Positions 11,302 through 12,561 of a DNA stretch of 64,000 nucleotides are shown piece after piece. The notes beneath the pieces were generated by a model that was given only the letters and a program-made list of their open reading frames with translations, ran no database searches and was not told the origin of the DNA. Made by a program: the position numbers and the translations under genes. Origin of the DNA: an uncultured Campylobacterota bacterium (GTDB lineage: Bacteria; Campylobacterota; Campylobacteria; Campylobacterales; Sulfurovaceae); the NCBI GenBank assembly GCA_937141405.1, contig CAKZQQ010000005.1:372001-436000 (forward strand), given 5' to 3'. Each line of letters begins with the position of its first letter. Position 1 is the first letter of the stretch.

Positions 11302-11460
11302 ATCTAACGGCAGTGCTGAGCGACACTCCAAAAAAAGTATATGAAAGCGTAGCTTTCGATATGCTTATTGAAAGGAGTGGGAAAGAGTGTTCGCTCCTGC
11401 GATTTGTTCTCGACGCCGAAGGCGGAGAGGACAAAAACTCGCTCAGCACTGCCGTTCTCA
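11302..11460 (-). repeat. Long attC-like site of a geneless cassette
   Basis: On the minus strand the ends are TGAGAAC (11460 side) and GTTAGAT (11302 side). Long outer arms AACGGCAGTGCTGAGCGA and its complement pair exactly over 18 bases, and several smaller hairpins fill the interior (for example a GAAAGC-TA-GCTTTC type at about 11343-11358 and one at 11411-11427). I find no credible gene here. The 314-base gap between genes (11270-11583) is filled by this and the next site. Confidence 0.7.
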
Positions 11461-11479: not shown

Positions 11480-11578
11480 TGAGAACGCCTCATTAAGAGG
11501 CAAAAAATAGTTGGTTAAAATAAGCGACGCAGGAGCAAAAACCAACTATTTTTTGTCCTTTTGAATGACTTGTTATAT
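11480..11578 (-). repeat. attC-like recombination site (after cassette 1)
   Basis: A 99-base imperfect palindrome. On the minus strand it starts ATATAAC just after the stop of the cassette-1 gene. The inner arms AAAAAATAGTTGGTT and AACCAACTATTTTTT pair exactly around a GC-rich loop. The outer arms are bulged, and the far end reads GTTCTCA, a poor core. It is joined to the next site by a palindrome at 11454-11486 (GTTCTCACTT and AAGTGAGAAC). Confidence 0.7.
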
Positions 11579-11979: not shown

Positions 11980-12257
11980 GATTCCCTCCTAGGCATATAA
12001 CTATTTATTAGGGGAACAAAATGTCCCACTATTACTCTATTTTTCATATTGGTAGTATATCAAAAATGTCCGGCTATTTTAAAAAAGTATGACAATTTGC
12101 CATATTTTTACTACTTTTTTATCAGTTTTCATAGAATGATAAAAATATCTTATGTCCTTTTAGTCGGATATGAGCCAATATTCGGACACTTTGTTCCCTT
12201 ATTTATCAAATACGGACAATAGAGGACATTGTGTCCTGCTATTTTTGGGAGGAAAAT
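11980..12257. promoter_or_regulatory. attI-like region with cassette and integrase promoter sequences
   Basis: A 278-base gap between cassette 1 and the integrase remnant. The core GTTATAT lies at 12001-11995 on the minus strand. GGACA or its complement TGTCC occurs seven times: at about 12023, 12068, 12154, 12184, 12214, 12224 and 12232. A 16-base block GGGAACAAAATGTCCC (12012-12027) recurs inverted with 14 matches at 12183-12198, and AGGACATTGTGTCCT (12223-12237) is a perfect palindrome just before the integrase ribosome site. A TATACT box on the minus strand at 12059-12054 with TTAAAA 17 bases upstream is a candidate cassette promoter. These motifs could be integrase-binding or repressor sites. 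Confidence 0.6.
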
Positions 12258-12368: not shown

Positions 12369-12443
12369 AAATCGAATGATTCCAGAGTCTCCATTCTCAA
12401 ATTTTTGAACAAATACTTGATATCCCATAATCTCTCTTGTCAT
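12369..12443 (-). pseudogene. Truncated 5' end of a cassette gene fused to the intI remnant
   Basis: On the minus strand a frame starts MTREIMGYQVFVQKFENGDS with its ATG overlapping a GTTAGAT core (12448-12442), exactly as a cassette gene would. After about 25 residues it runs into the reverse complement of the integrase remnant and becomes meaningless, although the frame stays open to 12150. I read it as the head of a lost cassette gene, not a working protein. No family is recognised. Confidence 0.5.
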
Positions 12444-12504
12444 CTAACTATTTATTCAACCTACATTATATGTAAAATAGCCTGAAAATCAATAAATAGC
12501 ATAC
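12442..12504 (-). repeat. Degenerate attC-like palindrome right of the intI remnant
   Basis: GTTAGAT at 12448-12442 on the minus strand, and paired arms CTATTTATT (12449-12456 region) and AATAAATAG (12491-12499) with an inner TACAT/ATGTA hairpin. The left box (ATGCTAT) departs from the consensus RYYYAAC. TAACTATTTATT is also present at the attI-like core at 11998-12009, so the two sites share sequence outside the crossover point. Confidence 0.5.
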
Positions 12505-12529
12505 ATTAAATATGTCGTATATCAAAATA

Positions 12530-12561
12530 AATATAAATGCCTTCAATAAGGCGTTTATATT
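12530..12561. terminator. Strong stem-loop between the array and tRNA-Ser
   Basis: AATATAAATGCCTT and AAGGCGTTTATATT form a 14-bp stem with one G-T pair and a CAAT loop. It lies 100 bases downstream of the minus-strand tRNA-Ser, so it could end that transcript; no gene lies in 12505-12659. Confidence 0.55.

Follow-up and report, generated by a model that had tools for sequence, protein, structure and literature searches.

A palindromic array that varies jointly with the integrase, and a putative SOS box, in the attI of Campylobacterota integrons

The classic integron recombination site, attI1 of class 1 integrons, contains the sites L, R, DR1 and DR2 for the integrase IntI1 (PMC3518468, PMC8946536); it consists of a core and two direct-repeat accessory sites (PMC3518468), and co-evolution of IntI1 and attI1 was proposed earlier (PMC3518468, PMC8946536). 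The attIA site of Vibrio cholerae has no such repeats (PMC8946536). In the superintegron of V. cholerae, the cassette promoter Pc and the integrase promoter Pint are situated back to back and have a common CRP box, with a LexA box at Pint (PMC8946536). As for the SOS response, a non-canonical LexA was described in Bacteroidetes, such regulators being reported as exclusive to that group (PMC8565304), and the epsilonproteobacteria, including Campylobacter, were described as having no LexA (PMC2390758). In the literature on Campylobacterota integrons, attI sites and SOS response covered by our search, which mostly did not extend to subscription journals, no description of the array or of the SOS system considered below was found.

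The locus studied here resembles attI1 in that several IntI-type sites lie on the intI side of the crossover and seem specific for the cognate integrase, the latter judged from sequence alone. However, unlike attI1, these are palindromes at five fixed places over about 255 bp, up to the ribosome site of intI. The sites in the window (the whole stretch of 64,000 nucleotides that was analysed) are inverted pairs, not the direct repeats of the attI1 accessory sites. In function the present sites would be comparable to accessory integrase sites, from which they differ in being palindromic and in their larger number. As with Pc and Pint of V. cholerae, the promoters are divergent, with a regulator site common to both between them and with probable SOS control. 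At that, the common site is in our case a TATNNCA-n3-TGNNATA palindrome, which recurs at recA and at an S24 repressor gene, and CTGT-n8-ACAG is absent. The likeness to the Bacteroidetes LexA, seen here in motifs, is in the combination of a CI-type HTH with an S24 peptidase and in a palindromic operator at the repressor's own gene and at SOS genes; the phylum and the motif are different, and the putative regulon also has dprA, competence-type genes and the integron. As to the SOS part, it probably adds a member from a further phylum to the non-canonical LexA kind.

The palindromic array of attI

The attI region of the window lies between the intI start (12258) and the first cassette, and both its junction and its layout are common to most relatives. 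The cassettes extend leftwards from it and carry attC-like inverted repeats. The features are listed in Table 1.

Table 1. Features of the attI region and its surroundings (positions in the window)
Feature	Position	Strand	Remark
attC-like inverted repeat of the cassette array	11306..11456	.	18-nt perfect arms; strong single-strand DNA folding, z=-7.6
First cassette ORF, 131 aa	11584..11979	-	no Pfam match
attI/first-cassette junction, between AAC and TATTTATT	11999..12009	.	conserved some 255 nt before intI in most loci whose upstream sequence is long enough
Palindrome S1	12011..12033	.	GAACA 12014-12018, TGTCC 12022-12026
Candidate -10 box TATACT, cassette promoter Pc	12054..12059	-	conserved in closest relatives; putative promoter
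Half-site S2	12067..12071	-	TGTCC on the plus strand
Central palindrome AAAAGTATGACAATTTGCCATATTTTT, core TATGACAattTGCCATA 12088-12104	12083..12109	.	putative SOS box of a CI-type S24 repressor
Candidate -10 box TAGAAT, intI promoter	12132..12137	+	TANANT-type box in -150..-110 in 42/65 loci; putative
Half-site S3	12153..12157	-	TGTCC on the plus strand
Palindrome S4	12176..12204	.	GGACA 12184-12188, TGTTC 12192-12196
Extra GGACA	12214..12218	+	no conserved site there in relatives
Palindrome S5	12218..12243	.	GGACA 12224-12228, TGTCC 12232-12236
intI remnant, about the first 37 codons	12258..12368	+	TIGR02249 E=1.2e-6
Beginning of a truncated gene cassette, joined to the intI remnant	12369..12445	-	antisense ORF from 12443 beside attI junction; putative
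Second, truncated attI, different motif type	12446..12559	.	89% identity with the L108 attI over 114 nt

An earlier note on this DNA had reported seven GGACA or TGTCC words in about 240 bases next to an integrase gene. The words are indeed there, at 12022, 12067, 12153, 12184, 12214, 12224 and 12232, that is, within 12022–12236, where 0.2–0.3 are expected. Nowhere else in the 64 kb are the words so dense over 240 nt, the window mean being 0.18 per 240 nt, and when the stretch was simulated 20,000 times with a first-order Markov model, seven words were never reached (the maximum was five). A similar density elsewhere would have spoken against the reading of that note; as gauged from the 64-kb window and pattern searches of the genome, the words are not scattered in this way, and in the window as a whole they are rarer than expected (48, compared with 69). 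The palindrome AGGACATTGTGTCCT at 12223–12237 is as described, and the inverted 16-nt block is reproduced as well, with 14 of 16 matches between 12012–12027 and the reverse complement of 12183–12198. The integrase gene, on the other hand, is not: it is a remnant of about 37 codons followed by a truncated cassette. Nor did a search of the kind proposed in the note reveal further copies beside a regulator gene; the other near-palindromes AGGACAnnnTGTCC of the genome lie within coding sequence or where an ORF ends, and exact GGACA-n(2-4)-TGTCC occurs in the genome only two more times, once inside an ORF and once in or near an ORF end. Two more GGACA/TGTCC words, at 11429–11433 and 11554–11558 of the window, are situated within attC-like repeats of the cassette array.

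The GGACA/TGTCC words are half-sites of a palindromic unit, xyACA-n3-TGTyx, with A/T-rich flanks. For comparison we used the 65 loci in which the junction is in view about 255 nt before intI; the extraction of sites tolerated shifts of up to 4 nt, and many of the genomes are incomplete. Palindromes or half-sites occupy five fixed places in this attI of about 255 bp, from the junction to the intI start, and have the same offsets in many loci. S1 adjoins the junction, S2, S3 and S4 follow, and S5 precedes the ribosome site. Integrons of Sulfurovum, Sulfurimonas and their kin, which belong to the same order, retain the array; its lack of conservation at related attI sites was the other case in which the earlier note would have regarded its reading as refuted. 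In some members of the order the match to the array is weak or no half-sites can be read. Of S1, the left half is retained in most relatives, and the right half is confined to the closest type (L043, L052, L053, L088). At a locus with a Planctomycetota IntI (L172, 927–1360), tandem GATCAAGGGCRCTTTATTTT-type repeats are found upstream of intI instead of this array.

The -10-like box of intI is situated upstream of S3. In many relatives (42 of 65) a minus-strand TATAAT-type box, ACATTATA or similar, overlaps S1. In the window's own type the place of this box is occupied by the right half of S1, and the TATACT box at 12054–12059 is likely its replacement. Since S1–S5 overlap or flank the promoters, bound IntI could block both of them.

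Joint variation of the array and the integrase

The letters xy vary between integrons (GG, AC, TA, TG) and tend to agree across the sites of one integron. They are mostly GG or GA in the window, AC in L046, L051 and L076, TA in L106, L109 and L112, and TG or CG in L039, L040 and L049. For the three bases preceding ACA, the within-locus agreement is 0.447, compared with 0.310 (sd 0.0085) after shuffling of the sites between loci. Kinship makes the loci partly dependent on one another; when the set was thinned by IntI identity to below 75–90%, down to 12 loci, the result was unchanged, and no shuffle reached the observed value. Further, the similarity of different sites in different loci drops with IntI identity, from 0.49 above 90% to 0.28 below 70%, and is only 0.233 for loci of host-genus-mates with IntI 70–75% identical. 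In the comparison between families the IntI trend is weak (Spearman 0.09). By these measures the array letters appear to follow IntI, not the host genus.

Among the other genes downstream of intI, none is shared by more than 8 of 116 loci. We read the binder as IntI, because the letters track IntI and no other gene is common downstream. Of the two readings offered by the earlier note, an integrase-binding array and operators of a regulator acting on both promoters, the former is best supported, by the conserved offsets and by the letters tracking IntI, and the binding is predicted accordingly from the motifs. Most likely, the GGACA sites form an array for IntI binding that overlaps the intI and cassette promoters. 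At the level of sequence, they have in common with the attI1 accessory sites that they are additional, repeated and, judging by the joint variation, specific for the cognate IntI. The recognition of attI by IntI is known for very few integrons, and the dozens of natural attI/IntI pairs, in which the motif can be read and varies jointly, would provide a ready specificity code to test.

The regulator reading, in which a transcription regulator encoded by the host acts on the intI and cassette promoters through the GGACA palindromes, has a basis: palindromes are typical of dimeric repressors, both promoters are overlapped or flanked by the sites, and S5 is directly next to the ribosome site. However, the letters differ between integrons within one host genus, and two attI of different motif type coexist in one genome and even in one window; only two further exact copies occur in the genome, one inside an ORF and the other in or near an ORF end. 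As the letters follow IntI and not the host, this explanation is disfavoured and we consider it unlikely. All that joint variation as such establishes is that the binder moves together with the integron lineage, and the sites might be recognized by an integron-associated protein other than IntI, encoded away from intI; but with no recurrent gene downstream of intI this is quite unlikely too. The positions of S3–S5 in the probable 5' UTR, a possible S5 hairpin before the ribosome site, and the predominance of sense G-U over A-C pairs (17 and 6) at one S4 pair would suit an RNA structure in the intI leader, an attenuator or a device of translational control. Yet S1 and S2 have the same motif outside that transcript, and there is no G-U excess at S5. 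The leader folds only slightly better than shuffled sequences (z -1.5), and given this weak folding signal the RNA structure was set aside as very improbable. Finally, that the repeats are of low complexity and arose by chance or are relics without function, as the dead integron of this genome might suggest, is hardly credible, being contradicted by the conserved positions and the joint variation across many loci.

The central palindrome and a candidate SOS regulon

Midway between the intI and cassette promoters lies one more palindrome, present in most relatives. It was absent from the list of motifs in the earlier note. In L063, an insertion upstream of intI is situated exactly in the loop of this palindrome. 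The canonical LexA box CTGT-n8-ACAG is not found in the attI region even with one mismatch; the earlier remark that the classical box is not seen thus holds, though a different SOS-type box is apparently present at 12088–12104.

Matching the genome against the pattern TATNNCANNNTGNNATA gave 23 sites, compared with 7 for the reversed control pattern. The intergenic sites precede recA, ruvA, dprA, a ComM-type gene, a ComEA-like gene, relB and PemK-type genes, a DUF2130 gene and the S24 repressor gene. The candidate boxes before the comEA-like (L240), comM-type (L238) and dprA (L284) genes suggest that competence-type genes belong to the regulon.

The S24 gene (G000:C6 80659–81309; L235:1219–1869) encodes a protein of 217 aa in which a CI-type HTH is combined with an S24 peptidase domain (Pfam Peptidase_S24, Phage_CI_repr), and the palindrome is present in its own promoter. 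The protein scores under the cut-off of the LexA family TIGR00498. Relatives of the gene were found in 67 of the 69 genomes searched, and the Ala-Gly cleavage site and the Ser/Lys motifs are retained in all 30 proteins checked. Of the features of a non-canonical LexA, the HTH and S24 domains, the cleavage and dyad motifs, and an operator motif at its own gene and at recA are found here.

The palindrome satisfying the strict pattern precedes 47 of 63 S24 genes and 16 of 28 recA genes and is present in 34 of 65 attI, with about zero in simulations; several recA genes that have no strict palindrome have near matches. Its occurrence at recA, the S24 gene and attI recurs across families. The S24 and attI palindromes of the same host are more similar than shuffled pairs (0.577 vs 0.407; none of 5000 shuffles reached the observed value). 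The letters of the central palindrome follow the host family more than IntI; thus, the hosts of family f6 have TATTTCA..TGAAATA-type sites at attI, the S24 gene and recA. An SOS box of a non-canonical LexA would be expected to have this appearance, and the central palindrome probably is one. Given such a putative SOS box, the integrons here are probably SOS-controlled, though the epsilonproteobacteria are said to lack LexA.

The best joint explanation, which seems to us quite probable, is that the array consists of IntI sites in attI and that the central palindrome is the operator of a host SOS repressor. The cognate IntI would bind the S1–S5 palindromes as dimers, with the half-site proximal to the junction helping to form the recombination core and the remaining, accessory sites serving to assemble the complex; at that, IntI would repress its own and the cassette promoters. 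The central palindrome, between the back-to-back promoters, would be bound by the host LexA-like repressor with a CI-type HTH and an S24 autoprotease, and its predicted cleavage upon DNA damage would switch on intI and the cassettes together. We also regard it as somewhat probable that the Campylobacterales outside Campylobacter and Helicobacter have a full SOS system with an S24 repressor, to which an integron box and an IntI-coevolving array belong. If this is true, damage control and self-control of the integrase meet in one attI of 255 bp. The data suggest that a group described as LexA-less has an SOS network comprising recA, competence-type genes and integrons, and that the SOS control of integrons was kept or regained with a different repressor.

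The relic integron of the window

The intI remnant is 95% identical to the N-terminus of the full IntI of L043. Neither this genome nor ten genus-mates (together 11 genomes of the genus) yielded a complete integron integrase. Because intI is cut after about 37 codons and the genus yields no complete IntI, the window's own integron is a dead relic. Elsewhere, IntI scoring above the curated cut-off was found in 36 of 175 genomes of the family and in 60 of 399 sampled genomes of the order, the named relatives being Sulfurovum, Sulfurimonas, Nitratifractor and other Campylobacterales.

The second attI lies 445 bp from the first and adjoins a tRNA-Ser gene. In a sister genome (G006), this second attI occurs as well, at the same tRNA-Ser, and a truncated copy of the first attI lies on another contig. 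A deletion appears to have joined the first cassette of the second attI to the intI stub of the first integron. Other genus-mates have shorter attI fragments. Those at L218, L219, L220, L221 and L233 are without intI, and several of them break off in the region of the central palindrome or shortly past it. One further short attI-like fragment is situated in the same genome as the window (L222, G000:C6, about 391070–391092).
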